Assembly: GCF_002980495.1 (NCBI RefSeq)
Contig: NZ_PVBR01000034.1
Span: 1 to 33,129 of the forward strand
Origin: Phyllobacterium phragmitis
Lineage (GTDB): Bacteria; Pseudomonadota; Alphaproteobacteria; Rhizobiales; Rhizobiaceae
Length of the DNA stretch: 33,129 nt
Direction: 5' to 3'
Numbering within the stretch: position 1 is the stretch's first letter; the number at the start of each line of letters is the position of its first letter. The position numbers and the translations under genes are program-made. Shown piece by piece: positions 4,901-20,640 of this stretch. Under the pieces are notes generated by a model. That model saw only the letters and a program-made list of their open reading frames with translations, had not been told where the DNA came from and did not search any database.

Positions 4901-5267
4901 AGGAACTCTCCATTTGTTGGCACGTTTCATGAATGTTTATGATCACGATTCCAATCACGTTGCGCGAATAGAATATGTCTTCACGCGCTCCGGATGCATA
5001 TATTGAAGCTTTAGCAAGTGCCGCATAAGGTCGAATTACGCGTGCATATCGGTCATGATCTGGATTCTAGTGGATTTCGCTAGGTATGCGATTGTTGTTA
5101 CTTTGCAAGCCATGCCTCCCAATTGATACCTCCGGAACGATTTCAAAACACATACCGTCAATTACATGATCTTCTGGCGCGTGTTTTTCTGAAAAACGCT
5201 TATTCTGAGTCGAACTCAACATGACACACAAGTACTTCTCAAGCAATGACGCTACAATAAACAAAGA

Positions 5268-5353: not shown

Positions 5354-5490
5354 AGAATGCAGGATGGACAGTTCCGAAGGCAGTTCCGGAAGGTGACGGT
5401 TGCTAAGACGCGGATGACCGAGAAGAAGATGTGGGCGCATCAAAACAAAGAAAGCGCGAAACTGAGGCCGTTCAGCGCTGGTAGTTCCAG

Positions 5491-5860
5491 GGCATGAGGG
5501 CATCGATGAGCGAAGCCGAGCTTCACATCCTGAAGACCCGTATGCATGAGGGGCAGCGCGCAAAAGCACGGCGTGGCGAACTCTTCCTGGGGCTGCCACT
5601 CGGCTATGCTCAAGCCCTCGGGGGATGTCGCGCTTGACCCTGATGAGGGCGTGCAACGCGCCATCCGCCTGGTCTTTGCCGTCTTCGAGCGACGGCGCTC
5701 TATCAGTGGCGTGCTGGGTTACCTGGTCGATCACGACATCCAGTTGCCGGATCGTATCCGCAACGGGCCCAACAAGGGTGACGTTTACTGGAACTGCCCC
5801 AATCGGGTCACGCTCTCGGACATGCTGCGTCATCCCGCCTATGTCTTCGGCCGGTTCTCC
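5491..5860 (+). pseudogene. Remnant of a serine site-specific recombinase
   Basis: Two adjacent frames together resemble the middle of large serine recombinases (resolvase/invertase type with a Recombinase domain). The first, from about 5491, reads 'MSEAELHILKTRMHEGQ' and 'RRGELFLGLPLGY'. After a frameshift near 5605 the second reads 'ALDPDEGVQRAIRLVFAVF' and 'GYLVDHDIQLPDRIR'. The N-terminal catalytic domain with its serine is missing and the C-terminal part stops at about 5860, where the antisense transporter remnant begins. The gene is therefore broken by truncation at both ends plus an internal frameshift. It is a scar of an integrated or phage-like element at the left border of the accessory block. 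Confidence 0.8.
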
Positions 5861-5867
5861 GTGTCGC

Positions 5868-6590
5868 TCACCACTGCAGCGACGTGCTGACGAAAAACAA
5901 ATCCCTGGCGCCAGTCTCGGCGCTGTTCTGGAAAATCCTGGAATAGCCGATGTCCGCGCCGATATTGCCGCCGGCAAGCCGCATGCCGACGGTCCAGCCG
6001 GCGATGTCGCCGCCCTCGAGGCCGAAGCGCTCCTCACCGAACACATGGCCGTAGTCGATCCCGGCATAGGGGCGCAGTTCCCCCAGCCGTTTGGCGAGCG
6101 TTGCATTGTCGGCCCATGGCATGGTGCGCCAGGCGATCTCGTTGCGCGTGAAAAGCCCGCTATTGCCGAAGAACACGCTGTCGCGCAGCCCACGCACATT
6201 CGAGTAGCCGCCGAGCGAGATCTGCTCGGCGCCAAACAGATTGTCGGGCGAATATTGTCCGCTGATCATCGAGCTCAGCTGAAGATTCTGGCCGGAGACC
6301 GCGAACGGCCTTGTCACGCTGATCGTACCGGAAAACTTGGAAAACTCCGGATCGGCGTCGCCCGCGCCCGGCTCACCGCGCCCGACCGCGCCGAAAAGGC
6401 CGAGCCCTTGGGCATAGCTCGCGTCGAACACCCAAAGACCACCGAGCATGCGGCGCGAATGCGAAAGCCCCAGATTGGCCACCGTATATTGCCGGCTGCC
6501 CACCTCGATGCGGCTGCCGAGCAGGAAATTGTTGGTTTCCTTGTAGGTCAACCCGGCATTGAGCGTGGTGCGCTTGTCACGTATACTGTT
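5868..6590 (-). pseudogene. C-terminal barrel fragment of a TpsB (ShlB/FhaC/HecB) transporter
   Basis: About 240 residues on the minus strand match the end of two-partner secretion outer-membrane transporters: 'GLTYKETNNFLLGSRIEVGS', 'SPDNLFGAEQISLGGYSNVR' (the conserved G-G-x-x-x-V-R-G loop region), 'PYAGIDYGHVFG', and a natural end at 'FFVSTSLQW', with the terminal aromatic residue typical of outer-membrane barrels. Full members have about 550-600 residues with POTRA domains; these are absent. An upstream ATG at 6647 is open, but residues 1-19 from it lie antisense-frame within the end of the neighbouring hydrolase gene and do not resemble the family. The transporter was cut by the rearrangement that brought in the hydrolase. 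No TpsA partner is visible in the window. Confidence 0.8.
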
Positions 6591-7353
6591 GGAAGGGCAG
6601 TTTCCGCGAACAATCGAGATCAGCGCTTGTTGATGCCGGGGATGCAAGCCGCAACAGCATCTCGGCGAGAGCTTCCGGTTCCGTGATCATGAGGTCGTGA
6701 CCGGAATCGATCTCCCAAACGCGGTCCCCTGCGCGCGCCCGTCGGGCGGATTCGGGAGAACGCACCGTGAATGACCATGAAGCATTGATGTTGGTGCACG
6801 GGATCTTGCGGACTGCCGCCTCGTCCGCCAGCTTCAGCGGTTGTTTATTGCACTTCAAAGGTTGAGGGGTAATCCTCTCCATCATCCACTCAACGTCGCG
6901 CGGATCCGTGATTCCCATGCCCTCGATGAACTCGAGGCTCGGGCCATTGACAAGTTCCACGCCGTCCACAATGCGCCATGTCTTGTGGTCGGCATCAGTC
7001 ACAATCGGATTGGCGTCTATATGCGCCTCGCCGTTGCGAGGATGCGTTGCATCAAGAAACACCAGATGTCCGACACGTGATAAAGCGCGATCAGCCACAC
7101 CCGTGATGACTCCCCCGCTATAGCTGTGGCCGACGAGGATGACATCCTTAAGGTCTTCGAATACCAGGACATTCACGACATCATCGATATGCGTATCAAG
7201 GTTGGTTTCCGGACTGAGAAGATGCCGCCGCTCTCCCAGGCCCGTGAGCGTTGGTGTGTACACTTCGTGGCCCGCGGATCGGAGCAATCTCGCAAGCCGC
7301 TGCCAGCACCATCCTCCGTGGCAACCACCATGAACCAGTACATAGATTGACAT
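6577..7353 (-). CDS. Alpha/beta hydrolase (EstC/methylesterase-like)
   Basis: 258 residues starting at 7353, with GGGAG upstream. Residues 3-10 (IYVLVHGG) carry the oxyanion HGG motif. Residues 75-80 (GHSYSG) hold the nucleophile elbow with Ser77, and His219 in 'IDSGHDLMITEPEALAEML' is the likely catalytic histidine. Order and length fit the EstC/SABP2-like esterase group, soluble cytoplasmic enzymes that hydrolyse small esters. The acidic triad member is not obvious. The last ~10-20 residues overlap the truncated transporter gene, so the natural C-terminus may have been replaced. It is the last gene of the minus-strand enzyme block and is separated from the acyltransferase by IS630 and P450 remnants. 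A role in trimming or releasing an ester in the cluster product is inferred from position only. Confidence 0.8.
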   Translation of the reverse strand: MSIYVLVHGGCHGGWCWQRLARLLRSAGHEVYTPTLTGLGERRHLLSPETNLDTHIDDVVNVLVFEDLKDVILVGHSYSGGVITGVADRALSRVGHLVFLDATHPRNGEAHIDANPIVTDADHKTWRIVDGVELVNGPSLEFIEGMGITDPRDVEWMMERITPQPLKCNKQPLKLADEAAVRKIPCTNINASWSFTVRSPESARRARAGDRVWEIDSGHDLMITEPEALAEMLLRLASPASTSADLDCSRKLPFQQYT

Positions 7354-7384
7354 GCTTTTCTCCCATTGTGCCGCGATTGAAGTT

Positions 7385-7530
7385 TACGCCGGCTGGCACG
7401 CCGCCGACAGGTTCGATTTGCCCGACAATCATGGCGCTGCCACCAAAATGTCCCGAGTTAAGCCAGGTCGAGACTATCTGGCAGTTCATGTGCACCAATT
7501 GGCCGTCGAACCGCATCGTCAGATCCTATG
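7385..7530 (+). mobile_element. IS630-family transposase remnant
   Basis: Plus-strand frames here match the C-terminal end of IS630-type DDE transposases: 'AGWHAADRFDLPDN' in one frame (from about 7388), then, shifted, 'ALPPKCPELSQVETIWQFM' and 'NWPSNRI' (7434-7520). The second part contains the expected Glu of the DDE triad (PELxxVE). Only about 145 bp remain, with a frameshift, so it is inactive. It separates the hydrolase start from the P450 remnant and marks an old insertion or deletion. Confidence 0.8.
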
Positions 7531-7683
7531 CGACTTCGAGTCGTGATGATCTGGAGTTCGAGCAACGCAAGTGCCTGACCTATGCATACGCGCGGCCCAG
7601 TTCCGAAAGGAAGATACGCCTTGGCGGTGTAGCTCCTGTCGAGCCGGAATTCGTTTGGCGCTTTCCGCTTGCGAAGATGGAAG
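7531..7683 (-). pseudogene. Cytochrome P450 heme-binding-loop remnant
   Basis: The minus-strand translation of about 7545-7661 reads 'PNEFRLDRSYTAKAYLPFGT' and then 'GPRVCIGQALALLELQIIT', that is, the meander and the Cys-ligand loop FGxGPRxCxG of a P450. The DNA is nearly the same as 18252-18382 inside the upstream P450 gene, with only about ten differences by eye over ~130 bp. The frame breaks just after the loop (near 7545) and nothing else of a P450 is present. It is a fragment of a third, lost P450 copy, or a rearranged duplicate of the existing gene. Confidence 0.85.
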
Positions 7684-7709
7684 CAACGCTGTCATCTTAA
7701 TGATTGATT

Positions 7710-8492
7710 TTAATATTCCGGCTCCCTCTCTAAATCAAGGCACGCCTTCTGTTGCGCAAGCATATCTAATTCGGCGGCGATAGTGCCATTCAGTATCTCT
7801 TCAAATCTCTTTAGCGCGCGGGCGATGTCAGCGCCGTCCATAACCCTGTGATCGAAATGGATGCGTACTATAACACCGCCGTCTTCCCCCATCACGCCGT
7901 AGTTGAACAGCGTGGTCAAAAACGAAAGAGGATTAGGCGAATCTGCTCCCAAGCCAGAGATCACAGACAGATGAAACGTGCCAAATAAGTTTGCCCGCTG
8001 TTGCCCCAGGTTGAGGCCAATCCATATCAGAGTTCGCCGGATCGGAGCTGGCGCTTGCGCTAACCAAAGCCAGCGCTGAGCTTCCTTGTTCTCAAGAATC
8101 GGACGGGAGCGTGCAGCCTGCAGCATCGCTCCCAGTTCCGGTATAGAGCGTTCCTCCGGGCCTTTGATGCGGGTCATGACAACCACCTGCACACCCTCAA
8201 ATTCGCTTTCCTGAGCGACCGAGGCCACACTCATCGGGTATTCATAAAGGCGCGGCGTGGGCAGCTTGATATAAGCACGCCTCAGTTCCGGCACTTCTTG
8301 GGCAAGGAGCGCGTATCCCTTTAGGAAAAGTACAGTCCAGGAGGGCCTGGGCTCCAAAGCCCCTCTCGCGCGAAGAAGCGGACCGAGTTGCATCCAGCGC
8401 TCTACGGTGACCCTCGGGAACTTCATCGCAAATCCCATGAGGTCGCAGGCAAGGCGCCGAGGTGCCGAAAGCTTCAAGGTTTTGCCACGCAT
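7710..8492 (-). CDS. Stand-alone CAT-fold acyltransferase (2-oxoacid dehydrogenase E2 catalytic-domain family)
   Basis: The start at 8492 (MRGKTLKLSAP) has GGGAG 7 bp upstream. An open extension to 8576 runs into the IS5 remnant border and is unlikely to be used. Its 260 residues match only the catalytic domain of E2 acyltransferases. Residues 215-220 are HRVMDG, the HxxxDG active-site motif with His215 and Asp219. There is no lipoyl domain or E1/E3-binding segment, so it is not part of a dehydrogenase complex. Such free-standing proteins are taken to move acyl groups from CoA to small acceptors, as chloramphenicol acetyltransferase does. In this cluster it could use the arylacetyl-CoA made by the indolepyruvate oxidoreductase; that link is inference. 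It lies downstream of the AraC gene, separated from it by the IS5 remnant. Confidence 0.75.
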   Translation of the reverse strand: MRGKTLKLSAPRRLACDLMGFAMKFPRVTVERWMQLGPLLRARGALEPRPSWTVLFLKGYALLAQEVPELRRAYIKLPTPRLYEYPMSVASVAQESEFEGVQVVVMTRIKGPEERSIPELGAMLQAARSRPILENKEAQRWLWLAQAPAPIRRTLIWIGLNLGQQRANLFGTFHLSVISGLGADSPNPLSFLTTLFNYGVMGEDGGVIVRIHFDHRVMDGADIARALKRFEEILNGTIAAELDMLAQQKACLDLEREPEY

Positions 8493-8578
8493 CGCTACTC
8501 TCCCAGTATAAGTAGGGGATGGACGGGATTGGGACTGCGCCTGGCCAGCCAGCGCAAAAAGACAACAGCGTTTCATCT

Positions 8579-8833
8579 GAGTTGGCCGACAGCGCCTACG
8601 ATCCGCTCAACCTCATGATGGACAAGGCCGCCGTCTATCTCGACTTCGTTATCGAGATCATCCGCCGGTCCGACCAAAAGGGGTTCCAAGTCCGGCCCCG
8701 CCGCTGGCTCGTCGCGCGCACCTTTGGCTGGACGACCCGATGGCGACGCCCCGTGCGCGACTACGAGCAGCGCATCGACGTCTCTCACGCTATGATCCTC
8801 GTCGCCATGGGCGGTCCGGCGCGCATCCGGCGG
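8579..8833 (+). mobile_element. IS5-family transposase remnant
   Basis: The plus-strand frame from about 8579 reads 'ELADSAYDPLNLM', 'FVIEIIRRSDQKGFQVRPRR' and 'WLVARTFGWTTRWRRPVRDY', ending near 'MILVAMGG'. This is the C-terminal part of an IS5-type DDE transposase. The usual catalytic Glu in 'RRWxVERTFGW' is Ala here, so the protein would be dead even if made. The N-terminal two thirds and the terminal inverted repeats are missing. It sits between the AraC gene and the acyltransferase gene and overlaps the end of the AraC gene on the opposite strand. Confidence 0.85.
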
Positions 8834-9765
8834 ATCATTCCAGGCGTGGTGAACCGGTTTTTTCTTAGTACCGTAGTCATGTGGTTTTGACTGGAGAATC
8901 CGGATCGCCTTGCAATTTCCTGTAGCGACAAGTCCGTTTCGCGCAGACACCGTTCTGCTTCATCAAGACGTAACATCAGCAGATACTGATGTGGGGTTTG
9001 TCCGAAAGTTCTGCGAAAAGATGGCAGAAAATGTCCCGTCGAAATACCCAGAACCGCCGCCATCTCCGGAATGGAGATTTTCTGCCCAAAATTGGCTCTT
9101 AGATAATCCTCGATCTTGTGCGCGGCCTGATCGCTGAGCCCTTTGGCTGGCGAATTGGGAGGGTGCTCGCGTAACGTGGTATGATCTTTAATCAGCACAG
9201 TCACCAGGACAGTACGCAGGGCACAAAGATAAGCTTTCATCACAGGCGTGATACTTATCAGTTCCGGCCGTAGAAGATCCACGACCTGCATAATTCTGGG
9301 GTTCACGTATCTGCTCGGCGCGGGAAAGAGAGTTGCAACCTCATGAGCATCTTCGATTTCAAATATATCGGTGATGAGTTTTCTCTCAAGCGTGACGAGC
9401 AAATGCTCATTCCTGGCAGGCCATTTAACCTGCACCTCGCATTGAGGCGGAAAAAACAAAACGGTGCCCGCTGGTGCGTTGAAGGTTTCGCTTTTTCCAC
9501 CCCCCGCCTTCCATTGAAACTCCCTGGCTGCTGTGAGTATTATCATCGCTTTTAAATCATCAAATAGATATTCTTCACCGCAATTTCCGGTAATGTTATA
9601 GCTTATCTCGTCATCCAACACGCTAAATCTGCATTCTGTAAGTGATGCTTTTTCATATGAATAATAATCATCGTATTCACTGCAGTATTTATATGAATCA
9701 TCTTTATTTTTATTATTCATCGGTAATGACATATTAACCAATCTATCCATACTGTAGAATAACAT
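8785..9765 (-). CDS. AraC-family transcriptional regulator with altered C-terminus
   Basis: 326 residues from ATG 9765; ATGs at 9750, 9732 and 9720 are alternatives because none has a clear ribosome binding site. Residues 209-316 are the AraC/XylS double helix-turn-helix: 'ISIPEMAAVLGISTGHFLPS' is the first helix-turn-helix, and 'LQEIARRSGFSSQNHMTTVL' the second with its conserved GFxSQxHM. The N-terminal ~200 residues are a weakly conserved sensor domain. The first ~75 residues are rich in Tyr, Asp and Glu and coded by AT-rich DNA. The last ~15 residues (from about Ile311) are read from the antisense strand of the IS5 remnant, so the original end is lost. The gene follows the glycosyltransferase by 18 bp and probably controls the cluster; effector unknown. 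Confidence 0.85.
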   Translation of the reverse strand: MLFYSMDRLVNMSLPMNNKNKDDSYKYCSEYDDYYSYEKASLTECRFSVLDDEISYNITGNCGEEYLFDDLKAMIILTAAREFQWKAGGGKSETFNAPAGTVLFFPPQCEVQVKWPARNEHLLVTLERKLITDIFEIEDAHEVATLFPAPSRYVNPRIMQVVDLLRPELISITPVMKAYLCALRTVLVTVLIKDHTTLREHPPNSPAKGLSDQAAHKIEDYLRANFGQKISIPEMAAVLGISTGHFLPSFRRTFGQTPHQYLLMLRLDEAERCLRETDLSLQEIARRSGFSSQNHMTTVLRKNRFTTPGMIRRMRAGPPMATRIIA

Positions 9766-9783
9766 ATATTGATAATAATCACA

Positions 9784-11175
9784 TTACGATCTTATTTTAT
9801 ACTCTTGTGTATTATCGAGATATATTGAATCGTTAACTCCGAAATATGGCCAGGAACTTAAACTCAACTCTCGGCTTTGGTGCGTATGGACGCCCTCCAA
9901 TCTCTGTGCCACTTGACCAACGACCCGGAGGACTTCAGCGCGCGTGTCGATTGCGGCGAACTCTTTGGCGATGAGTGATGCATGCTGGCGATAGCTCTGA
10001 GCATCGTCAAGGACGGCTCGAATGGCGTTGCGCAACGCGACTGGCGTTGGCGTGTTCGTGGCAAGGTTGACACCAACCCCGGACCAGGCGACACGTGCGT
10101 TCACGTCGGCTTTGTCCTCGGTCAGCCCAGCGGCAACCAGGGGGATGCCAAAGCTCATGGCTTGGTTGACGCTGCCATAGCCGCCATTGGTGACGAAAAC
10201 GTCGGCTTTGGACAGTATCCATTCGAAGGGGAGATAGCTGGCCAAGCGCGCGTTGGCGGGAATGGGTCTCGGAATGACCTCAATCGGACGGCCGCCCGTG
10301 GTGACGACCACGAGCAGATCCGGCTCGTCGGCGAGCGCCGCCAGGGTCGGGGTAATCAGGAGGTTGAAGTCGTGGTTCGCCAATGTGCCCTGGGTGACAA
10401 GGATCACCTTGCGCCTGCCGTCCAGATCATCCGCCCAGGGCGGCAATGGAGCCTGGTTCGGAATGATGGGCAGTGCCCCGACGAACTGCACCGAAGGCGG
10501 AACGGCGTGCGTGAACTCGAAGCTCGGCACTGAAAGCTGCATGTAAGCATCGGTGAGTTCCACCACCGACTCGAGGAGAGGCTTCGACAGCGGCCCGGCG
10601 CCCACGCCTTCCAAGCACCGATCCAGGTAACGCGTGACAGGGTATCTGACAATGTTGTCGTATTCACGCGTGATGGCCGCGTATTCCTCATGCTGTGCCT
10701 GGGAGATTGCGGGATGTAAGCCGAGGAAGTTCGGTGCTCCGTCCTCGCGATGCCAGTGCAGGATGGTGGTGCCGAAAAGAACGACGGGAGGCCGCGCCGA
10801 TCGTGCCCCGAGAAGCATCGGCAAGACGCCGAAGAACTGATCGTCAGCGATGACAATATCGGCGGGAGCTTCCTGCAGCATTTGTTGCAGGCCCATGTAT
10901 TGAGCGGGAATTTCGTTAATCAAGCCGCACATGGCAGCGCGCAGCCACTCGAACCCTGGGGGCAGGGTTTTCAATTCGGGAAGCTTTGCCTGCGCATCGT
11001 GATCTGCGCTTTCGGGAAGGGGCCAGAATTCTGCGCCGACACTTTTGACGCGGTCCTGATATGCGCTCGCTGTAGAGGCAACGACTTCATGGCCTTCGCT
11101 CAATAAGATGCGCGCTATCCCAAGCATTGGAATGACGTGGCCCAGCGCGGGCGTCGCTGCCATAATGATTCTCAT
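9784..11175 (-). CDS. MGT-type glycosyltransferase (GT1 family)
   Basis: The start at 11175 (MRIIMAATPALGH) is supported by AGGGAG 9 bp upstream; an ATG at 11259 is open but lies inside another small frame. The 463 residues show the GT-B fold of the macrolide-type UDP-sugar glycosyltransferases. The N-terminal acceptor domain starts with 'ATPALGHVIPMLGIARIL'. The C-terminal donor domain has 'FVTNGGYGSVNQAMSFGIPL' and then an 'EDKADVNARV' segment, matching the family nucleotide-sugar signature, with Lys in place of the usual Gln. The enzyme should transfer a sugar to a hydroxylated small molecule in the cytoplasm. The donor sugar cannot be told. The last ~30 residues are coded by AT-rich DNA. 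The gene is 18 bp upstream of the AraC gene and 22 bp downstream of a small ORF. Confidence 0.9.
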   Translation of the reverse strand: MRIIMAATPALGHVIPMLGIARILLSEGHEVVASTASAYQDRVKSVGAEFWPLPESADHDAQAKLPELKTLPPGFEWLRAAMCGLINEIPAQYMGLQQMLQEAPADIVIADDQFFGVLPMLLGARSARPPVVLFGTTILHWHREDGAPNFLGLHPAISQAQHEEYAAITREYDNIVRYPVTRYLDRCLEGVGAGPLSKPLLESVVELTDAYMQLSVPSFEFTHAVPPSVQFVGALPIIPNQAPLPPWADDLDGRRKVILVTQGTLANHDFNLLITPTLAALADEPDLLVVVTTGGRPIEVIPRPIPANARLASYLPFEWILSKADVFVTNGGYGSVNQAMSFGIPLVAAGLTEDKADVNARVAWSGVGVNLATNTPTPVALRNAIRAVLDDAQSYRQHASLIAKEFAAIDTRAEVLRVVGQVAQRLEGVHTHQSRELSLSSWPYFGVNDSIYLDNTQEYKIRS

Positions 11176-11197
11176 ATGAGGACTCTCCCTGAACGGC

Positions 11198-11308
11198 TCA
11201 ATGCGCAGCGCAAATGCTCGGGTCGTCGCGTCGCCGCTGGTTGGCTTGCGCTCCGCCATCGGCGTGCGTTATCGTGACCACGGTAGCGCAATACTTGGGT
11301 TTCGCCAT
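11198..11308 (-). CDS. Small ORF, 36 codons, in front of the glycosyltransferase
   Basis: ATG at 11308 is preceded by GGAAG at 6 bp, and a -10/-35 pair lies about 35 bp further upstream. The peptide begins MAKPKYCATVVTITHADGG, is basic in the middle (RRR), has cysteines at 7 and 33 and ends CAAH. The stop lies 22 bp before the glycosyltransferase start. I do not recognise it. It may be a leader peptide, a small structural or precursor peptide, or a chance frame within the leader of the glycosyltransferase mRNA. Confidence 0.35.
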   Translation of the reverse strand: MAKPKYCATVVTITHADGGAQANQRRRDDPSICAAH

Positions 11309-11326
11309 TCTATACTTCCATCAATC

Positions 11327-11352
11327 AATATATAATATGTATATTATATATT
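11327..11352. repeat. Perfect AT-only palindrome over the -10 region
   Basis: Arms of 12 bp (AATATATAATAT and its exact complement) are separated by GT. The palindrome covers the -10 box and the likely transcription start of the promoter at 11343-11371, so it could be an operator as well as an RNA hairpin. It lacks the GC stem expected of a terminator. Confidence 0.6.
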
Positions 11353-11371
11353 ATTAATAGAATATGTGCAA
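11343..11371 (-). promoter_or_regulatory. Likely sigma-70 promoter for small ORF/glycosyltransferase
   Basis: On the minus strand TTGCAC (11366-11371), a 17-bp spacer, and a consensus TATAAT (11343-11348). Transcription would begin near 11336, about 28 bp before the small ORF. It lies directly downstream of the stop of the oxidoreductase gene and would split the cluster into two transcription units. Confidence 0.5.
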
Positions 11372-11379
11372 GTTTATTT

Positions 11380-14300
11380 TTAATTAAATTGCAATTCCTT
11401 AGAGTTGGCATGGAGAACCCTGGATGAGCGGTTCTTCGCAACAGATTTCTCCCTCTCTCCACAGGTTGGAATCTGGTCAGAATGATCCTTTTCCAAGCTA
11501 TCGAGGAGGCGTAAGCGCTCCTGTTCTGCCTTCCCGGCATTTTCTTCCTTTACATGGCCAAAGCCACGGATCAGAAAAGGAATGGAGGCGAGTTCGGTAG
11601 CAATTCTAACCCTGCCTGGTGCAAGAACACGCTCGATGAGATCGAGATCAGCCTCGTAGCGAGCAAGAAGCCGGCGCTCCATGCGTCGTTCCGCCGTGCG
11701 GCCGAACGGATCGAATGCCGTACCGCGCAGCCGTTTCAGGCGGGCCAAAACCGAAAAGCCCTTTATCATCCAATTGCCGTAACGCGTTTTCTTGAGATGC
11801 CCATCGGCATCCTGCCGGGCGAAGATGGGTGGCGCCAGGTGAAACTCCAACCGGTCGAAGCTCTCGAACTCCGCTGCAAGCTGCCGCCGGAAGGAACCGT
11901 CCGTGTAAAGGCGCGCCACCTCATACTCGTCCTTGACCGCCATCAGCTTGAAGAGATTGCGCGCCGCTGCCTGCGTCACGGCGGTGGAGCCGGGGACGAT
12001 CTTGTCCTCCACCGCGCGCAGCCGCAGGATGCGGGCACGGTAGCGCTCGGCATAGGCCCGGCCCTGATAATCCGCAAGGAAAGCCGTGCGGCGAGCGATG
12101 ATCTCGTCCAGCGTCTGCTCCGTCCGATCGTCGGCCAAAGGGGTGGAGCACTTCACCAGCCCGTGCACATATTGCGGGTCGTGGGCGGCACGGCGGCCCC
12201 AACGGAAGGCCGCTATGTTCATGGCCACCGCCTGCCCATTCAACGCGATCGCCTTTTCGATCGCCTCCACCGACACGGGCAACCCGCCGAGCTGGCAGGC
12301 CATGCCGAGCATGAACATGTTGGCCCCGATGGAATTGCCGAACAGCACAGTGGCGGTCCGGGTGGCATCGAAAAAATGCACCCTAGCCTCGCCCGCCGCA
12401 TCGCGAATGGCCTTCTTCAATTGTTCTACGGGTAGCGAAAAATCCGCCGAACGGGCGAAATCACCCGGCATCACCTCCGCCATGTTGGCGAGAAACAGCG
12501 TGTGCCCCTCGCACACGGCGGCAAGCACTTTTCTGGAACCGGAGACCACGAGATCGCAGCCCAGCACCAGATCCGCCTTGCCGGCTGGCACGCAGATAGC
12601 CTTGATATCGCAAGGCGCGTGGGCAATGCGCAGATATGAGAAGACCGCGCCGCCCTTTTGAGCAAGCCCGGCCATATCGATGATGCCCGAGCCCTTGCCC
12701 TCCAGATGTGCCGCCATGCCCAGCACGGCACCGATGGTGACGACACCCGTCCCGCCAATGCCATTGATGACGCCGGACCAGCCATGATCGAGCGGAAACA
12801 GGCAAGCTTCCGGTACGCCGGCTAACGGATCGGCGTCGCCCACCGTACCACCGAGCTTTTTCACCTTGGCCCCATGCACAGTGACAAAAGCGGGGCAGAA
12901 GCCGTTGACGCAGGAAAAATCCTTGTTGCAGCTCGACTGGTCGATGCGTCGCTTACGACCGAATTCCGTGTCCAGCGGCTGCAGGGAGGCGCAATTGGAT
13001 TTGATGCCGCAGTCGCCGCAACCCTCGCAGACGAGTTCATTGATGATCACCCGCCTGTCAGGATCGGCCAAGGCGCCACGTTTGCGCCGGCGGCGCTTTT
13101 CTGCTGCGCAGGTCTGATCGTAGATGAGCACGGAGACGCCCTTCACCTCCTGCAAGCTTCGCTGCACCTGGTCGAGATCGTTGCGGTGCTGAATGGTGGC
13201 ACCGGCGGGAAAGCGCACGGTACCGTCATATTTCTCCGGCGCATCGCTGACGACCGCGATGCGCGACACGCCTTCGGCACGCACCTGCTCGGCGATCATG
13301 TCCACCGTCAGCCCGCCTTCGTGCGACTGTCCGCCGGTCATCGCGACGGCATCGTTATAAAGGATCTTGTAGGTGACATTGACGCCAGCGGCGATGGCAA
13401 AGCGCAGCGCCAGCGAACCGGAATGATTATAGGTGCCGTCACCCAGATTCTGGAAGACGTGCTCGCGCCTGGAGAATGGCGCCTGCCCGACCCACTGGGC
13501 TCCCTCCCCACCCATGGTGGTAAAGCCGACCGTGCCGCGATCCATCCACAGCGCCATGAAATGGCAACCGATGCCGCCGCCGGCGATCGCGCCTTCCGGC
13601 AGGCGCGTGGAGGTATTGTGCGGGCAACCGGAGCAGAAACCGGGTGCACGACCGGCAATATCCCTGATGCTGGCCAGCCGAGCCTGGAGCTGGTGCAATC
13701 GCGCCACCCGTGCGGCGATCTCGTCCGATGGGCCAATGATTTTAAGCACCCGCTCCCCTATGGCGATAGCGATATGGTTCGGATCGAGCGACCCCATGGG
13801 CGCAAACAGCTGATCGCCATATTCATCCTTCTTGCCGATGATGGTGGGCTGCATGCGGGTGCCATAAAGGTTTTCGCGTAGTTGCACCTCGATCAGCGGC
13901 CGCTTCTCCTCGACAGCGATCACCGTTTGGAGGCCGCGTGCGAAATCCTTGATATGCTCGCCATCGAGCGGCCAGGGACAGGCGATCTTGAACAGCCTGA
14001 TACCGAGAGCACTGGCGCGTTCTTCATCGATGCCCAGATCGGCCAGCGCCTGGCGCACGTCGAGATAGCTTGCACCAACGGTGATGATGCCCAATTGCGG
14101 CTTCCTGCCGCCGGACCAGATGATGCGATTAAGCCCGTTCTCGCGCACGAAGGCGGCCGCCGCAGCCCGCTTATAGGCATGCAGCCGCTCTTCCTGGCCG
14201 AGCTGGTTCACCTCGTGGCGGATGTTCAATCCTCCTGGCGGCATGTCGATATGCGGAAGTACGATCTTCAGCCGTTCCTGCGTCACGTCGACCGAAGCTG

Positions 14301-14925
14301 TCGATTCGATGTTGTCCTTCGCGCATTTGATGGCCGTCCAGGTGCCGGCAAAGCGCGACAGCGCATAACCATAGATGCCGTAGTCGATAAGCTCCTGGAG
14401 ACCCACCGGATTGAGGATCGGCACCATGGCATCGACAAAGGCGAATTCACTCGCATGCACGACGGAAGAAGATTCAGCCAGATGATCATCGCCCATCAGC
14501 GCCAGCACGCCGCCGTGCTTCGACGAGCCGGCCAGATTGGCATGGCGAAAGACATCGCCAGTGCGGTCGACACCTGCCCCTTTGCCGTACCAGAGGGCGA
14601 AAACGCCGTCATGACGCCCCTCGCCCAAAAGCTCCGTCTGCTGTGAGCCCCAGCACGCCGTTGCCGCCAGTTCCTCGTTCAGTCCCGGCTGAAAGACGAT
14701 GTCGGCGACCGACAACTGCTTGCCAGCTTTCCAGAGCTGGTGGTCGAGCCCGGCCAGAGGCGAGCCGCGATAGCCCGAGACGAATCCGGCCGTATTCAGC
14801 CCGGCCCGCCTGTCCCGTTCGCGCTGCATCAGGAGCATGCGCACGATCGCCTGGGCGCCTGAGACGAAGATACGCTCCTTGCCAAGGTCATATTTATCGC
14901 CAAGAGAGACTTTATGGCAGACCAT
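11380..14925 (-). CDS. Indolepyruvate:ferredoxin oxidoreductase, fused single-chain type
   Basis: 1181 residues, starting 11 bp after the preceding gene, with an AGAGG site overlapping that gene's TAG. The N-terminal thiamine-diphosphate pyrimidine domain has 'GFVSGYRGSPLAGLD' (48-61). The central ThDP-binding domain has 'CSGCPHNTSTRLPEG' (431-445) and 'GDGTYNHSG' (495-503). A cysteine-rich Fe-S segment follows at 633, 636, 639 and 645, with more cysteines at 666-677. The gamma-type domain starts around 718 with 'INGIGGTGVVTIGAVLGMAA'. The enzyme family oxidatively decarboxylates aryl pyruvates (indolepyruvate, phenylpyruvate) to arylacetyl-CoA, passing electrons to ferredoxin. In catabolic settings it serves aromatic amino acid breakdown. 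Here, among P450s and acyltransferases, it may supply an arylacetyl-CoA building block and reduced ferredoxin. No ferredoxin gene is in the window. Confidence 0.93.
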   Translation of the reverse strand: MVCHKVSLGDKYDLGKERIFVSGAQAIVRMLLMQRERDRRAGLNTAGFVSGYRGSPLAGLDHQLWKAGKQLSVADIVFQPGLNEELAATACWGSQQTELLGEGRHDGVFALWYGKGAGVDRTGDVFRHANLAGSSKHGGVLALMGDDHLAESSSVVHASEFAFVDAMVPILNPVGLQELIDYGIYGYALSRFAGTWTAIKCAKDNIESTASVDVTQERLKIVLPHIDMPPGGLNIRHEVNQLGQEERLHAYKRAAAAAFVRENGLNRIIWSGGRKPQLGIITVGASYLDVRQALADLGIDEERASALGIRLFKIACPWPLDGEHIKDFARGLQTVIAVEEKRPLIEVQLRENLYGTRMQPTIIGKKDEYGDQLFAPMGSLDPNHIAIAIGERVLKIIGPSDEIAARVARLHQLQARLASIRDIAGRAPGFCSGCPHNTSTRLPEGAIAGGGIGCHFMALWMDRGTVGFTTMGGEGAQWVGQAPFSRREHVFQNLGDGTYNHSGSLALRFAIAAGVNVTYKILYNDAVAMTGGQSHEGGLTVDMIAEQVRAEGVSRIAVVSDAPEKYDGTVRFPAGATIQHRNDLDQVQRSLQEVKGVSVLIYDQTCAAEKRRRRKRGALADPDRRVIINELVCEGCGDCGIKSNCASLQPLDTEFGRKRRIDQSSCNKDFSCVNGFCPAFVTVHGAKVKKLGGTVGDADPLAGVPEACLFPLDHGWSGVINGIGGTGVVTIGAVLGMAAHLEGKGSGIIDMAGLAQKGGAVFSYLRIAHAPCDIKAICVPAGKADLVLGCDLVVSGSRKVLAAVCEGHTLFLANMAEVMPGDFARSADFSLPVEQLKKAIRDAAGEARVHFFDATRTATVLFGNSIGANMFMLGMACQLGGLPVSVEAIEKAIALNGQAVAMNIAAFRWGRRAAHDPQYVHGLVKCSTPLADDRTEQTLDEIIARRTAFLADYQGRAYAERYRARILRLRAVEDKIVPGSTAVTQAAARNLFKLMAVKDEYEVARLYTDGSFRRQLAAEFESFDRLEFHLAPPIFARQDADGHLKKTRYGNWMIKGFSVLARLKRLRGTAFDPFGRTAERRMERRLLARYEADLDLIERVLAPGRVRIATELASIPFLIRGFGHVKEENAGKAEQERLRLLDSLEKDHSDQIPTCGEREKSVAKNRSSRVLHANSKELQFN

Positions 14926-14936
14926 GTTCTCGTCCT

Positions 14937-15734
14937 CTATATGTAGGAGCCGTATTCGGGCGCGTTCACCGAGGTCACGGTACGGAGCCGGGCTAGGGAA
15001 TATTGGCGGGAAGTGCTATTCAGCAAGATACGACTGTCCCACCAGGACCGATAGTTCTCGGCGAGGCGCGACATCTCGCTATTGAACCTTTGCAATCGCA
15101 TGAACCGCGCCTTCTCGCCCGCAAAGCTCGTCAATGCCAGAACGCTCCCGTCATCCTCCGCCCCCTCCATGAGCGAAAAAGATCCGAAAGAAGCAAAAAG
15201 CCGGTCGATTTTGAAGCGGACAATGGGAGCCATAACGATCTCGTGCTCTTCGCCTGCCTCGCTGTGAAACAGAAAATGAAGGACCACCATCAACTGGCAG
15301 AGCTCCGCAACCAGGCTACGGTTCGCTCTGAGCTTCGGATCGATCGTGAACCCCCCGGTATAGGAGAGCTTGTCGGGCCTGTGTTCGAACCTTCGAACAA
15401 GATCCTCCATCGCTTCGATATGGCGCTCGCAGCTGGACTGATTGCATAATGATTGCGGGGCAAATGGCATGTGGTGCCTGCGATATTGCTGCAGCGTCGC
15501 CCGCTGAAAGCCCATAATGGGTCGAAGCCCATCTCTCTCCTCGCAAATCAAGAAATGACTTGCGAACCAGCACGAAGCGTCGAATGGGATCACGCCTTCC
15601 GGATATTTGTTGCCGTAGCCGTTGATCCTGAGCGTAATCGTCCTCTCCAGGAGTTGCCGGACGAACGGGTCGTGCCACTGTTCAAGCGCACTATCCAGTT
15701 GGATGAGAATGTAGGATTCGGGAAGGGTCGACAT
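14937..15734 (-). CDS. GNAT-like protein, possible N-acyltransferase
   Basis: 265 residues; the start at 15734 has GAGGTGATCC directly upstream. I do not recognise a named family with certainty. Residues 30-90 ('ITLRINGYGNKYPEG', 'FDASCWFASHFLICEE', 'IMGFQRATLQQYRRH') resemble the N-terminal half of autoinducer-synthase-like or FeeM-like GNAT acyltransferases. Residues 124-190 ('TGGFTIDPKLRANRSLVAEL', then 'FASFGSFSLMEG') follow the GNAT order of beta4, alpha3 and a late Gly-Phe. The N-acyl-amino-acid synthases of this fold attach acyl groups to amines. It sits between the methyltransferase (18 bp upstream) and the oxidoreductase (11 bp downstream), so it is surely in the same operon. An acyl transfer using the arylacetyl-CoA made next door is an attractive but unproven idea. 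Confidence 0.6.
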   Translation of the reverse strand: MSTLPESYILIQLDSALEQWHDPFVRQLLERTITLRINGYGNKYPEGVIPFDASCWFASHFLICEERDGLRPIMGFQRATLQQYRRHHMPFAPQSLCNQSSCERHIEAMEDLVRRFEHRPDKLSYTGGFTIDPKLRANRSLVAELCQLMVVLHFLFHSEAGEEHEIVMAPIVRFKIDRLFASFGSFSLMEGAEDDGSVLALTSFAGEKARFMRLQRFNSEMSRLAENYRSWWDSRILLNSTSRQYSLARLRTVTSVNAPEYGSYI

Positions 15735-15752
15735 GGATCACCTCTGTATGGT

Positions 15753-16538
15753 CTATCGCTTGATTGCGCTGACGATGAACTTGTTGAAGAAACTCACCGA
15801 ATGTGGATCGGCCAGGCATTCGAGATAGTCTTCGCGAAAGCGCTCCCATTCCTGGGCTGAACCGATAACGCGCTCGAAAAAGGCGGATGCATTCGCAAAC
15901 CTCTCCCGCATCTGGCCGATCTCGCTTTTCTTTTCGGCCCCGCGAAACTCGGTGGTCTCGATGGCCCAGGAAATCGATGCAAGGCCAGCATTTGAAAACA
16001 GGTGAGGAAGTTTCCGGCCGACGAAGAGATCCACCTCGTCTGTCGCGGCAAGCTTCTTCAGGCCTTGCTTCACACTGAACGTCTGCGGATACAGGTTGAG
16101 GATGATCCCATCGACATCAATGATAATTAGTTTACCTGCCGGTTTGAGGACACGCACCAACTCGGAGATAATACGCTCCTGACGCTCGCAGCTTTGATGA
16201 TGCAGAACAAAGCGGGAGACGATCAGATCGAATTGAGAGTCTTCGAAGTCGAGCTCGAAAAGATTCTTCTCCTCAAAGCTCAAATTGTGGACATCTTTGG
16301 CGCGTTCCCTTGCCTCGCGCAGGATCGGCGCAGAATAATCGCAGGCTATGATCCTTGATCTGGGAAATCGGCCCGCCAGATAGCGACTGACGATGCCCGA
16401 CCCGCAGCCCGCATCGAGAATGCAGGCTCCATCTTTGACCTCGATCCCCTCCAGTTCCCTTTGGTAGTCATAGGCGGGCAAGGCGGACTGCCTCTCCAGC
16501 CGCTCAAATTCGCCGGGATGTTCCAGGACATACGACAT
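15753..16538 (-). CDS. SAM-dependent class I methyltransferase
   Basis: The start at 16538 (MSYVLEHPGEF) is preceded by GGAGAG at 8 bp; a longer open frame to 16679 overlaps the P450 gene and is not likely. The protein has 261 residues. Residues 39-48 (CILDAGCGSG) are motif I of the SAM pocket, 'IIACDYSAPILREAR' (63-77) carries the acidic residue after strand beta2, and 'FDLIVSRFVLHH' (103-114) is motif II. The C-terminal half is a lid specific to substrate and gives no named match. It should methylate a small molecule on O, N or C. It begins 32 bp after the P450 at 16571-17938 and is followed after 18 bp by the GNAT-like gene, so translation is probably coupled to a common transcript. Confidence 0.88.
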   Translation of the reverse strand: MSYVLEHPGEFERLERQSALPAYDYQRELEGIEVKDGACILDAGCGSGIVSRYLAGRFPRSRIIACDYSAPILREARERAKDVHNLSFEEKNLFELDFEDSQFDLIVSRFVLHHQSCERQERIISELVRVLKPAGKLIIIDVDGIILNLYPQTFSVKQGLKKLAATDEVDLFVGRKLPHLFSNAGLASISWAIETTEFRGAEKKSEIGQMRERFANASAFFERVIGSAQEWERFREDYLECLADPHSVSFFNKFIVSAIKR

Positions 16539-16570
16539 GGCTTGATCTCTCCGGGAGTTTCTGGCTTGTA

Positions 16571-17938
16571 TCAGTGCTCGCGAGCGTGAACAGGACACGC
16601 ACTGTGGGAATGCTCGGCGGTTTCCGAAATTGCGGCGGGTTGAAGCGCCGAACGACAAAGTTCGGGCTGGATCGCCCACAGCTTCGTTCGGTCGCGCCCC
16701 TCCATGAGCATGGACGGTGGTGTGAGATGTACCGCAGGAAGCGGCGCGCCTACCGGTCCGACAAGTGAGAGTTGTAGACTGGAAGCGACTTCCAGCGCGA
16801 TGATCTCAAGCTCGAGCTTCGCCAGCGCCGCGCCGACGCATACGCGCGGCCCCGTCCCGAATGGAAGGTAGGCTTTCGTGTTATACGTCCTGTCGAGCCG
16901 GAACTCCTCGGGGGCATCCCAGAAGCGCGCCGAATGATGGAGCGTCCATGGCGACACCATGATGGATGTGCCGCGGCGCAACCTCCGGCCGCCAAACTCC
17001 ATATCCTGCCTTGTGCCACGCGCAAACCAATAGGCGGACGGATATAGCCGCAGGACTTCCTGGGTTGCGGCCAGAGCCGTGCTCGCCGAAGACAGTTTCG
17101 CATAGTCGAGATCACCATTCTCATCGCGCACCGTGGCACTTTCAGCCGCAATCCGGTCGGCGAGCCCCGGCACGGTCGCCAAGGCGTGGAGAAGCCAAGC
17201 CGTGGCGGAGCCCGTGGTGTCCGAACCGATGAGCAGAAGCGTCAGTATCTCGCTGGCAGTATCACGATCGGAAAGATTCAGCTCATCCAGAGAACGGCTC
17301 ATCCCCGCATCGGGAGCCCGTTCACGAACGCGGCGGACTATCAGCTCCATGGTCTCCTTGGCGGCTGCCCTGCGGCGCTGCCGCTCCGCGCGCTTCCATG
17401 GCAGGAATGGCGCAGATCGAAATATCTCGTCGGCCAGATCGTTCTCCACCTGCCTGAGGGCTGCGATGAGTTGCTCCTCTTCGGCCGGAGAAAGGGCTCC
17501 AGGGCCGAACGCCACGATACAGATGAGGCGTAGCGCCAGACTCGCGCCGAACTGACGAGCATCGAAATGTCCCGTTCTCGTCACGTCCGCTATTGCCCGG
17601 CGCACCTCCGAGGCCAGCACCGGCGTCAACCGCTCGACAACGACACGCGCCAGTGTCGAATGGTACACAGCATGCCGCCGTTTACGCTCCTCACCTGTCA
17701 GAACGATGATATTGTTGCCGGTAATTGCGCGGAACTTTGCGGTCATCGGACCCTTGTCTATCAAGTCCTCCGACGTCTTCAAAAGCGGCTTGATGTACTC
17801 CGGGTCGGCAAGCAGGTATACGGGCCGAAAGCCAATATTGAGCGGGACCAGAGGCTCTGTCGCCGCATCTGCTTTATCCACAAGACAGGCCAGCGGATCA
17901 CGCCGGAATGCTGGAGTGTCCGAGAACATATGTTTCAT
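16571..17938 (-). CDS. Cytochrome P450 (second of two paralogues)
   Basis: 455 residues from ATG 17938, with AGGA about 10 bp upstream. The I-helix oxygen-activation motif is LIGSDTTGSATAW (236-248). ExxR is EVLR (294-297), and the heme loop is FGTGPRVCVG with Cys367. There is no membrane anchor, so it is a soluble bacterial class enzyme that takes electrons from a ferredoxin or similar partner; none is encoded nearby. It begins MKHMFSDTPAFRRDPL, closely like the neighbouring P450, and both end in a variable tail carrying CPVHA, so they arose by duplication. It likely oxidises the product of this cluster. It follows its paralogue after 87 bp. Confidence 0.95.
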   Translation of the reverse strand: MKHMFSDTPAFRRDPLACLVDKADAATEPLVPLNIGFRPVYLLADPEYIKPLLKTSEDLIDKGPMTAKFRAITGNNIIVLTGEERKRRHAVYHSTLARVVVERLTPVLASEVRRAIADVTRTGHFDARQFGASLALRLICIVAFGPGALSPAEEEQLIAALRQVENDLADEIFRSAPFLPWKRAERQRRRAAAKETMELIVRRVRERAPDAGMSRSLDELNLSDRDTASEILTLLLIGSDTTGSATAWLLHALATVPGLADRIAAESATVRDENGDLDYAKLSSASTALAATQEVLRLYPSAYWFARGTRQDMEFGGRRLRRGTSIMVSPWTLHHSARFWDAPEEFRLDRTYNTKAYLPFGTGPRVCVGAALAKLELEIIALEVASSLQLSLVGPVGAPLPAVHLTPPSMLMEGRDRTKLWAIQPELCRSALQPAAISETAEHSHSACPVHAREH

Positions 17939-18025
17939 GACAGAAAATCCTATCGCTGACGGTTATATCAAGATCGCTTCGTCGTTGGCGGCACCTCAGC
18001 CTTCATGGGAGCACGCGCCCTCACT

Positions 18026-19390
18026 TCACGTCCCCCCGTGAGCGTGAACAGGACACCCGCTGCGGAAAGGCTCGGCCAGTTCTGAAGATGTGAACTCATC
18101 CGACGCGAGCCCAGAATTCTTGGATGGGCTTGTCCGAATACTTTGTCGCTCGCGGGCTTCCATCGGAATGGCGGGAGGGGAAAGATGCACCCCCGGTACC
18201 GGCGCGCCGAGTGGCTCCTTGGCCACGAGCCGCATGGCCGACGCCACCTCGAGCGTGATGATCTGGAGCTCGAGAAACGCAAGCGCCTGACCAATGCATA
18301 CGCGCGGCCCAGTTCCGAAAGGAATGTACGCCTTGGCGGTGTAGTTCCTGTCGAGCCGGAATTCGTTTGGCGCCTCCCAGAAGCGCGAGCAGCGATGGAA
18401 AAGCCACGGCGATACGATGATGGCTGTGCCGCGGCGTAATTTTCGACCGCCAAACTCGACATCTTCTCGCACACCGCGCCCAGTCCAATAGCCGGGCGGG
18501 AAGAGCCGGAGTACCTCGCGCACGGCTGCGGTGGTGGTCGTAGCCGATGCAAGTTTTGCGAAATCGATCTCGCCCTCATCGTCGCGGACGGCATCGGCCT
18601 CAGCCGCGATCTGATCGGCCAATTCCGGCATGGTCGCCATGGTGTGGCAGAGCCAGGCAACGGTAGCCCCTGTCGTGTCGTGGCCCGCAAGGAGAAGTGT
18701 CAGGATTTCGTCTGCCGTATCGCGGTCGGAAAGTCCAAGTTCGCCGTAGCTGCGGATAATGGCGGATTCCGGTGCGCGCTGGCGAACGCGGCGTACGACG
18801 CCGATCATATCCTGTTTGAAACCCTCGATCCGGCGGCGCTGCGCGAGATATGCCCAGGGCATCTGCAGGGGGCCAAAGATTGTGTTAGCGAGTTCGACCA
18901 TCGCCTGTCGGAGCGCTTGAATGACAATTTCTACATCCTCCGGGGAAAGGGCGTTGGCGCCGAACGAAACGACCGAGACAAGACGCAACGCCACACTCGC
19001 GCCAAATTGGCGTGCGTCGAATGTTCCGTCTTTCATGACTTCCGCGATCGCCATGCGGGTTTCACGTGCCAGCATCGGTGTGAGACCTTCCACCGCTGTA
19101 CGCCCCACGACCGAATGCAACACGGCGCGTCGGCGCTTGTTTTCCTCGCCTCCGAGAACAGTGACGTTGTTGCCGGTAACAGCGCGGACTTTCTTGACCA
19201 TCGGGCCTTTGTCCATCACCTCTTCCGGCATTTTCAGCAGCGGCTTGATGTAGTCGGGGTCGGTCAGCAGGAATAAGGGCCGCATACCGAACGCCAGAGG
19301 CATCAGGGGCTCGGTCGCCGTCGTTCCACGCTCAACCAAAAAGGAGAGCGGATCACGCCGGAATGGCGCAACATCTGAAAACATGCGCAT
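18026..19390 (-). CDS. Cytochrome P450 (first of two paralogues)
   Basis: The start at 19390 (MRMFSDVAPFRRDPL) is chosen because GGAGG lies 8 bp upstream; an ATG at 19405 is in frame but poorly placed. The 454 residues contain LLAGHDTTGATVAW (I-helix, about 233-246), EVLR (292-295), and FGTGPRVCIGQALA with Cys365. Soluble, no signal peptide. The C-terminus ends CPVHAHGGT, matching the CPVHA tail of the paralogue at 16571. The heme-loop DNA also occurs as a remnant at 7531-7683. It starts 65 bp after the sulfotransferase stop. It is expected to hydroxylate or otherwise oxidise a hydrophobic intermediate before glycosylation or sulfation. Confidence 0.95.
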   Translation of the reverse strand: MRMFSDVAPFRRDPLSFLVERGTTATEPLMPLAFGMRPLFLLTDPDYIKPLLKMPEEVMDKGPMVKKVRAVTGNNVTVLGGEENKRRRAVLHSVVGRTAVEGLTPMLARETRMAIAEVMKDGTFDARQFGASVALRLVSVVSFGANALSPEDVEIVIQALRQAMVELANTIFGPLQMPWAYLAQRRRIEGFKQDMIGVVRRVRQRAPESAIIRSYGELGLSDRDTADEILTLLLAGHDTTGATVAWLCHTMATMPELADQIAAEADAVRDDEGEIDFAKLASATTTTAAVREVLRLFPPGYWTGRGVREDVEFGGRKLRRGTAIIVSPWLFHRCSRFWEAPNEFRLDRNYTAKAYIPFGTGPRVCIGQALAFLELQIITLEVASAMRLVAKEPLGAPVPGVHLSPPAIPMEARERQSIRTSPSKNSGLASDEFTSSELAEPFRSGCPVHAHGGT

Positions 19391-19455
19391 CGTTGAATCC
19401 TCCATGTGTTTGGGGTAGCACCCGCGACTTGACCTCAGAGGCGACCGGGGTATTC

Positions 19456-20640
19456 TCAGTTAAATCCGTGCTCTTTGCGGTAATCTTCATAGAGGTCGCG
19501 AAGCTCGGTGGATGTGATCCCCCACTTGTCGCCTGCGTATTCGTGCGGACCGTTCTTCGTGGTCGGACTGGCCACGATCCACTCACGCATGTTCTGCTCG
19601 GCAAGCGGCGAAAGCGTCAGTCCGAAATATCTGTAGATGGAACGCACCGTCCCCAATGCGTCCGCCTCGAAATCGCGGTGATCGACGTCGAAGAATTGCG
19701 AGGCGCGACCCCGGCGGGCTTCATCCGCCCTATCCAGAGCTTTGCGCCAAAAGGGAGCTTCCCTGGGCCCGATAGCCTCAGGTCGTGCATTCTCCCCATG
19801 AATGGCGTGCTCGAGCATGTACCAAAGGCTGCATAGGGACGGTATCGTCTTGAGCGGATCCCTATGCGTCTGGATGATGCACGCGTCCGGGAATATATCG
19901 AACAGATTATCCATTTCGGTCATGTGGTAATTTTCCTTGAGGAGCCAGCGCCGATCCGGCTCACCACTCCCGATAAGGCGCAGGATATCCGCATAGCGGC
20001 GATAGGCGGCCAGATGGCTGTGCGTTTGATAAAATCGGCCATATGAGCGGAGGAATGGAGCCAGTTCATAGCGCAAGAAGCTCTGGCACAGCGCCTTTTT
20101 GCACTCCTCCACCTCGTCCGCGAGAATGTCGTGCGCCTTAATCATTCCCGGCATGTGGGATATCATCATTGTCGAATGAGCGACGGCGGCGCGGTATGAA
20201 GGGTTGGTCTTCCAGCTCTCGCGCGGCGGACGGATCTGGGGCTTTTGCGCGAGCCAGAACTCCACGCCCTGGAACTGTGGATCCATTGAGAGAAGCCTGT
20301 GGAGCGCGGTCGTTCCACTGCGTGGAAGGCCAATGATCACGACGGGCTTTTTGATCGGCATCGACAGGACGTGAGGATTCTCCGCCCAGCCTTTTTCCGC
20401 GTATAATCGCGCAGTTAGCGGGCTAAGAAAGTAGTAGTTGTAGACAAATTCCAGACCACGCTCACTGACCTTCACGTCAGTATCGAATCCGTCGAGTAGC
20501 GCGCGAAACGCGTCGCGGTAGGCCGGATCGCCAAAGTCATGCAGACCCGTCTGAGCAATGGCGGCTTCGTGGAGATCATCCTCGCAATCCGAGAGTTTTC
20601 TTTTCACGGCAATCGCATTAGTCATTGTTACAGCAGTCAT
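19456..20640 (-). CDS. Sulfotransferase family protein
   Basis: 394 residues from ATG 20640, with GGAGGAAGG just upstream. Residues 99-111 (PVVIIGLPRSGTT) form the 5'-phosphosulfate loop for PAPS. 'IIQTHRDPLKTIPS' (255-268) carries the 3'-phosphate-binding Arg/Ser segment. Size and motifs fit the Sulfotransfer_3-type bacterial enzymes, which move sulfate from PAPS to hydroxyl groups of lipids or small molecules. It is cytoplasmic with no signal peptide. This is the first gene of the central block, with a promoter about 300 bp upstream. It would modify a hydroxyl made by the P450s. The substrate is unknown. Confidence 0.9.
   Translation of the reverse strand: MTAVTMTNAIAVKRKLSDCEDDLHEAAIAQTGLHDFGDPAYRDAFRALLDGFDTDVKVSERGLEFVYNYYFLSPLTARLYAEKGWAENPHVLSMPIKKPVVIIGLPRSGTTALHRLLSMDPQFQGVEFWLAQKPQIRPPRESWKTNPSYRAAVAHSTMMISHMPGMIKAHDILADEVEECKKALCQSFLRYELAPFLRSYGRFYQTHSHLAAYRRYADILRLIGSGEPDRRWLLKENYHMTEMDNLFDIFPDACIIQTHRDPLKTIPSLCSLWYMLEHAIHGENARPEAIGPREAPFWRKALDRADEARRGRASQFFDVDHRDFEADALGTVRSIYRYFGLTLSPLAEQNMREWIVASPTTKNGPHEYAGDKWGITSTELRDLYEDYRKEHGFN

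Follow-up and report, generated by a model that had tools for sequence, protein, structure and literature searches.

In the draft genome of Phyllobacterium phragmitis (5.6 Mb), contig C34 carries a block of tailoring-enzyme genes without a classical synthase. The contig was analysed in full and constitutes the window (33,129 bp). Its matches to plasmids of Rhizobium and Mesorhizobium suggest the order Hyphomicrobiales, and a search of the assembly for 16S gave no match. The core of the block comprises six genes, encoding a sulfotransferase (ST), two cytochromes P450 (P450a and P450b), a methyltransferase (MT), an orphan protein and an indolepyruvate oxidoreductase (IOR), and gene layout and protein profiles point to a tailoring-enzyme operon as the most likely reading of the stretch from ST to IOR. 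A glycosyltransferase (GT) and an AraC-family regulator likely form a second unit. We give an even chance to the fuller proposal that ST to IOR, together with GT and AraC, constitute a horizontally acquired, mosaic small-molecule operon. Sequence comparisons indicate that the parts of the block have separate histories. The genes of the core and of the second unit are:

19456..20640, minus strand: sulfotransferase (ST), the first core gene (Pfam Sulfotransfer_3, 7.2e-36)
18026..19405, minus strand: cytochrome P450a, I-helix AGHDTTG (Pfam, 1.8e-44)
16571..17938, minus strand: cytochrome P450b, I-helix IGSDTTG (Pfam, 1.4e-45)
15753..16538, minus strand: class I S-adenosylmethionine-dependent methyltransferase (MT; Methyltransf_25, 4.3e-24)
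14937..15734, minus strand: orphan protein of 265 aa, without family match
11380..14925, minus strand: fused indolepyruvate ferredoxin oxidoreductase (IOR; 2-oxoacid to acyl-CoA; NF009588)
9784..11175, minus strand: MGT/UGT-type glycosyltransferase (GT), short start (EryCIII-like_C, 1.6e-16, and UDPGT, 6.9e-12, with the longer open reading frame (ORF) scanned)
8785..9765, minus strand: AraC-family regulator (HTH_18, 1.2e-17)

The first-pass annotation had described a single 14-kb cluster, reaching from ST past AraC to a CAT-fold acyltransferase (CAT) and an alpha/beta hydrolase, with one orientation, short gaps and good ribosome binding sites (RBSs). Most of its gene identities were confirmed by profiles (ST, both P450s, MT, IOR, the MGT-type GT, AraC and the hydrolase), whereas the CAT-fold call reached only a sub-cut-off match. 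The gaps are indeed short from ST through P450a, P450b, MT and the orphan to IOR (50, 87, 32, 18 and 11 nt by ORF coordinates) and between GT and AraC (18 nt), but they widen to ~204 nt between IOR and the likely GT start and to 356 nt between CAT (start 8495) and the hydrolase. These values take the MT start at ATG 16538; an alternative, longer GTG ORF would overlap P450b. All genes do lie on the minus strand, which is weak evidence for a unit because the contig's 14 main genes all share this strand, i.e., two adhesin-type ORFs, the 3′ fragment of a two-partner-secretion transporter gene (TpsB), the ten genes from ST to the hydrolase and a 3,423-aa autotransporter-like protein, the flanking adhesin-type genes thus included. 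By eye, RBSs are good for ST, the orphan, IOR, GT (short start) and the hydrolase, but weak for P450a, AraC and the long CAT start. Promoter-like sites were found upstream of ST (20977-20941) and of GT (11370-11343, 10/12 matches), and the region contains 14 such sites, compared with 6.5 on average in shuffled sequence. The reported lack of a polyketide, peptide or terpene synthase is borne out by Pfam scans of the contig's main ORFs; as a scaffold-forming enzyme, these ORFs offer no classical synthase and the orphan as a candidate only. The idea of one 14-kb unit, on the other hand, gave way to a mosaic, since an IS5 remnant parts CAT and the hydrolase from the rest and, in both regions read, relatives of CAT belong to an unrelated gene set. 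What survives is a unit smaller than the one originally claimed. We divide the region into core, second unit and foreign neighbours based on the gaps, the IS5 remnant, the context of the CAT relatives and the truncated TpsB gene.

In the pathway that such an operon could encode, IOR would convert an aryl- (or branched) 2-oxo acid to its acyl-CoA, which the orphan, a candidate joining enzyme, or an enzyme encoded elsewhere would couple to an amine or alcohol. Hydroxylation of the coupled product would fall to the pair of P450s, which come from a lineage linked to acyl-homoserine lactones (AHLs), possibly with electrons from ferredoxin reduced by IOR, before MT and ST would cap the hydroxyls by methylation and sulfation. 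GT would glycosylate the product or protect the host, and AraC would control the operon. Several observations weigh against this scheme: IOR is frequent among relatives and may be catabolic, no ferredoxin gene occurs among the ORFs scanned, the orphan as joining enzyme shows no detectable AHL-synthase homology, and the searches made turned up the block in no other genome, so that a joint function is without comparative support.

These searches sampled relatives from at least 25 families of the order and at least 32 genera of the family; scans of the genome_contigs collection rest on short peptide patterns, by which distant relatives would be missed. ST had a match at E≤1e-50 in one of 385 genomes of the class, its own. 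A window P450 was matched at E≤1e-40 in 10 of 297 genomes of the order, own included, and the nine other neighbourhoods (stretches of 17–20 kb) held no other core gene; AraC matches of 23–24% occurred in one of them. Likewise, the best 80 of 129 confirmed P450 loci in genome_contigs contained no ST, MT, orphan, IOR, GT or CAT, with a hydrolase match (30–36%) in eight and an AraC match (24%) in one. Where GT, CAT, ST and IOR have relatives on plasmids or in genomes, the surrounding regions contained none of the other core genes. The first-pass annotation had named scattered homologues as the outcome that would speak against a cluster, and this is what the comparison returned: the loci compared share no conserved neighbourhood. 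A conserved neighbourhood is therefore refuted as far as searched, while a recent or rare assembly remains compatible with these sequence data.

Scattered homologues with unrelated neighbours would also be expected if transferred genes and remnants had piled up by accident amid mobile-element scars and served no common pathway. The surroundings fit this explanation, as the IS5 remnant, a recombinase-like fragment (Resolvase 0.062, below cut-off) and the truncated TpsB gene lie around the block. However, the six core ORFs are open over their full length, their gaps measure 11–87 nt and several have good RBSs, and P450a and P450b have diverged after duplication and each retains its catalytic residues, which suggests selection. 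We regard an accidental pile-up as possible but unlikely.

The window IOR is full length and belongs to the fused type NF009588, with 1675.6 bits compared to a curated cut-off of 952. The host possesses a second, native IOR on contig C10 (G000:C10:157101-160493), which is 72% identical to it. Copies from four genomes of the genus (six were searched) share 91–94% identity with each other but only 70–72% with the window IOR, which, in a quick tree with SH-like approximate likelihood-ratio support only, clusters with copies from Mesorhizobium plasmids and from other genera of the family. For both reasons the window IOR is, by its sequence, a xenolog, an extra copy from another lineage; a recent duplication within the own genus was not supported by this quick tree. 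Relatives of the window IOR (71–72% identical) also occur inside or beside a type III secretion gene cluster on two Mesorhizobium plasmids (L132, L141). According to an excerpt of PMC5577590, Ior1 of Phaeobacter produces phenylacetyl-CoA for tropodithietic acid, and by this precedent it is plausible that the window IOR could supply aryl-acetyl-CoA for a secondary product.

An IOR match at E≤1e-200 was present in 39 of 61 genomes, own included, and this wide occurrence would suit a catabolic or detoxifying island, in which the P450s hydroxylate plant aromatics or a xenobiotic, sulfate, sugar or methyl groups are conjugated and IOR takes part in arylpyruvate breakdown. P450s, sulfotransferases and UGT-type transferases are classical conjugation enzymes, and AraC regulators often respond to small aromatics. 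Nevertheless, no ring-cleavage, CoA-ligase or uptake gene was detected among the ORFs scanned and a native IOR already exists in the genome, and we consider such an island improbable.

P450a and P450b form a tandem sister pair with 58–60% identity, and the window is the only one of the tree loci up to L124 with more than one P450 place. Both retain the heme Cys and the ExxR motif, and at the I-helix acid position both have Asp. They fall into a clade with 46 other P450s (support 100/100), nearly all of which belong to Hyphomicrobiales by record title or kinship. Directly upstream of the P450, 44 of these 46 have a gene for the AHL synthase LuxI, and a divergent LuxR is present in 44 as well. 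All six LuxI proteins scanned (five complete, one probably cut by the contig end) scored above the Autoind_synth cut-off. The exceptions are L080, cut at a contig end; L018, which is near a contig end and lacks LuxR; and L081, in which LuxR is present and LuxI was not found. The LuxR-LuxI-P450 triplets, mostly from Hyphomicrobiales, correspond to loci L014, L017-L022 and L045-L083. In the window, ST and not LuxI precedes P450a, and Pfam and NCBIfam scans found neither LuxI nor LuxR among the block ORFs.

The acid residue in the I-helix takes part in oxygen activation by P450s. At this position all 46 clade members carry His, whereas both window P450s carry Asp and 40 other P450s outside the clade have Glu (39) or Asp (one). 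Four more distant P450 loci, titled Marinimicrobia and Rhodospirillaceae, have LuxI and LuxR nearby and keep the usual acid. In the tree made with a masked I-helix motif, P450a and P450b joined the P450 of an uncultured Neomegalonema (L046) inside the clade (100/99). Firm nesting inside the clade was toned down because the approximately unbiased test did not reject a position of the pair outside the LuxI-linked rows (p 0.127). The pair either kept the ancestral acid or regained it, and the nested tree favours a regain of Asp. The first P450 tree was built without the loci numbered below L014, L024, L015, L016 and L023, which are window pieces or copies of genomes represented under other numbers, and without L115 (<250 residues); in the masked tree 34 of 88 rows were left out, mostly near-copies, also L018 and L080.

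Since 44 of the 46 other P450s in the clade are linked to LuxI and the host has two Autoind_synth (luxI) genes, the block might hydroxylate, methylate or sulfate AHLs made by one of the two LuxI. For a marine strain, modification of AHL chains by a P450 has been put forward as a hypothesis, and a P450 homologue was noted in its genome, although in the excerpt concerned it is not tied to luxI (PMC5479921). Tailoring of host signals is nonetheless very improbable, as both host luxI genes lie off this contig, the block ORFs include no LuxI or LuxR, the window I-helix is unlike that of all 46 clade members compared, and IOR and the orphan would be left unexplained. One of the two host luxI genes (L135, G000:C6:11000-27000) has an adjacent LuxR-like ORF, followed by two EPSP-synthase-like ORFs and one asparagine-synthetase-like ORF (by eye), and is possibly another signal or metabolite locus.

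The orphan protein had been called GNAT-like, a call that received no profile support, as no Pfam match was better than E 0.22, no NCBIfam match was obtained and profiles of the GNAT / AHL-synthase superfamily did not recognise it. Its strand-helix pattern could fit GNAT by eye only, and a single-sequence AlphaFold2 model gave an unusable fold (mean pLDDT 35). An assignment as AHL synthase was rejected: hhalign against 46 LuxI rows returned a probability of 0.1, inside the range of ten shuffles (0.1–1.1) and next to 0.1–0.3 for four other window proteins. The LuxI alignment was made after leaving out 10 of 56 rows (nine copies of kept loci and one over-long ORF). The orphan was matched in one of 61 genomes of relatives searched, its own, and genome_contigs, plasmids and viral contigs yielded no confirmed relative. 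Eight weak matches (E 0.017–0.035, with a threshold of E≤0.05; 13–16 bits, five with internal stops) were treated as chance, and a PDB search gave two matches at chance level only (E 0.49 and 0.94). In the neighbourhood of the native IOR on C10, a 303-aa protein (L133:3475-4386) appears GNAT-like by eye; kinship of the orphan to it was likewise rejected (BLAST E 3.2 over 7 residues, hhalign 0.1). Only as a long shot do we mention that the orphan may be an unrecognised acyltransferase replacing LuxI, with IOR giving aryl-acetyl-CoA and reduced ferredoxin and the P450s regaining the oxygen-activating Asp, so that a new aryl-acyl signal or effector would result; the P450 lineage would then have left behind a role in signal tailoring, in which the His form carries out a different chemistry.

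To the left of the core, GT is likely the first gene of the second unit. Position 11175 is its probable start, as the alignments to its three best plasmid relatives begin only at residue 24–28. The relatives of GT come from Bradyrhizobium and Microvirga (62–63% identical), with no other core gene in their regions. The last ~10 codons of the AraC ORF lie within IS5-derived sequence. The features beyond are:

8581..8814, plus strand: 3′ remnant of an IS5-family transposase, 84.8% identical to an annotated Mesorhizobium huakuii IS5 transposase
7710..8495, minus strand: CAT-fold acyltransferase-like gene, ORF opening at 8576 (2-oxoacid_dh, 21.0 bits, below the curated cut-off of 23)
6577..7353, minus strand: alpha/beta hydrolase (Abhydrolase_6, 9.5e-21)
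5867..6570, minus strand: 3′ fragment of a two-partner-secretion transporter (TpsB), family named by eye

The IS5 remnant, whose match to DDE_Tnp_1 (0.0056) is below cut-off, sits between AraC and CAT; because of it, CAT was set aside as an operon member, and CAT and the hydrolase are probably neighbours of other origin, outside the operon. CAT probably starts at ATG 8495, since DNA similarity to its relative in a Rhizobium locus (7767-8493) stops at 8493, and its protein has a motif read by eye as HxxxDG. Its relatives come from 31 plasmid records, each from Ensifer, Rhizobium, Sinorhizobium or Pararhizobium, with 58–66% identity to the 15 listed among these 31, and in both regions read they adjoin genes for an isoprenylcysteine methyltransferase (ICMT) and a short-chain dehydrogenase/reductase (SDR). 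On the Rhizobium and Ensifer plasmids concerned (L034, L036), ICMT, CAT-fold protein and SDR form a small set. The 3′ end of the hydrolase gene abuts the truncated TpsB gene. The TpsB fragment has 79.7–83.8% DNA identity over 704–716 nt to intact copies on the host's own contig C49, in G003 (two) and in G004, and it is without the 5′ part of these copies, which encode ~580–600 aa; it is the left edge of a foreign segment. Next to it, what looks by eye like a piece of a site-specific recombinase occupies positions 5485-5890 (Resolvase, E 0.062). The block is bounded by the truncated TpsB gene on one side and an adhesin-type gene on the other, and mobile-element scars are present. Towards the contig ends there are two large adhesin-type ORFs (2-4930) with Big_1 matches below cut-off and, on the other side, the autotransporter-like protein (21652-31923) with 15 PATR stretches, to whose gene a 1,171-aa ORF without Pfam match runs antisense.

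Four known systems can be compared with the block. The window P450s fall into the same clade as those of the LuxR-LuxI-P450 triplets of Hyphomicrobiales and kin (46 loci), but the window block is without LuxI and LuxR, its P450s stand in tandem with Asp for His, and it has extra enzymes. With the tropodithietic acid pathway of Phaeobacter, of which the excerpt of PMC5577590 describes the Ior1 branch, the block would share an IOR feeding aryl-acetyl-CoA to a secondary product, whereas its enzyme set of P450, MT and ST is different. The native IOR locus of the same genome contains the same fused enzyme family but has other neighbours, belongs to a separate lineage, and no other core-block gene was found there. 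Finally, Paraburkholderia sprentiae WSM5005 encodes a sulfotransferase 39% identical to the window ST; unlike the latter, it sits with the genes cysDN and cysQ for the supply of 3′-phosphoadenosine 5′-phosphosulfate, and no other core-block gene was found in that region. Neither a LuxI-P450 operon nor the gene set of the window was found described in the open-access literature (titles and abstract starts, among the matches listed). A tailoring-enzyme operon is a known kind of system, of which the window block appears to be a new version, still unproven. If it works as an operon, it encodes a pathway that synthase-based cluster finders would miss and for which the species searched yielded no relative. 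The most testable result, which may matter more than the operon, is the His-type, LuxI-linked P450 clade: alphaproteobacterial P450s nearly always directly behind an AHL synthase gene and without the usual I-helix acid point to AHL signals with an unrecognised modification, and the window P450s, with the acid present, provide the natural comparison for the members of this clade.

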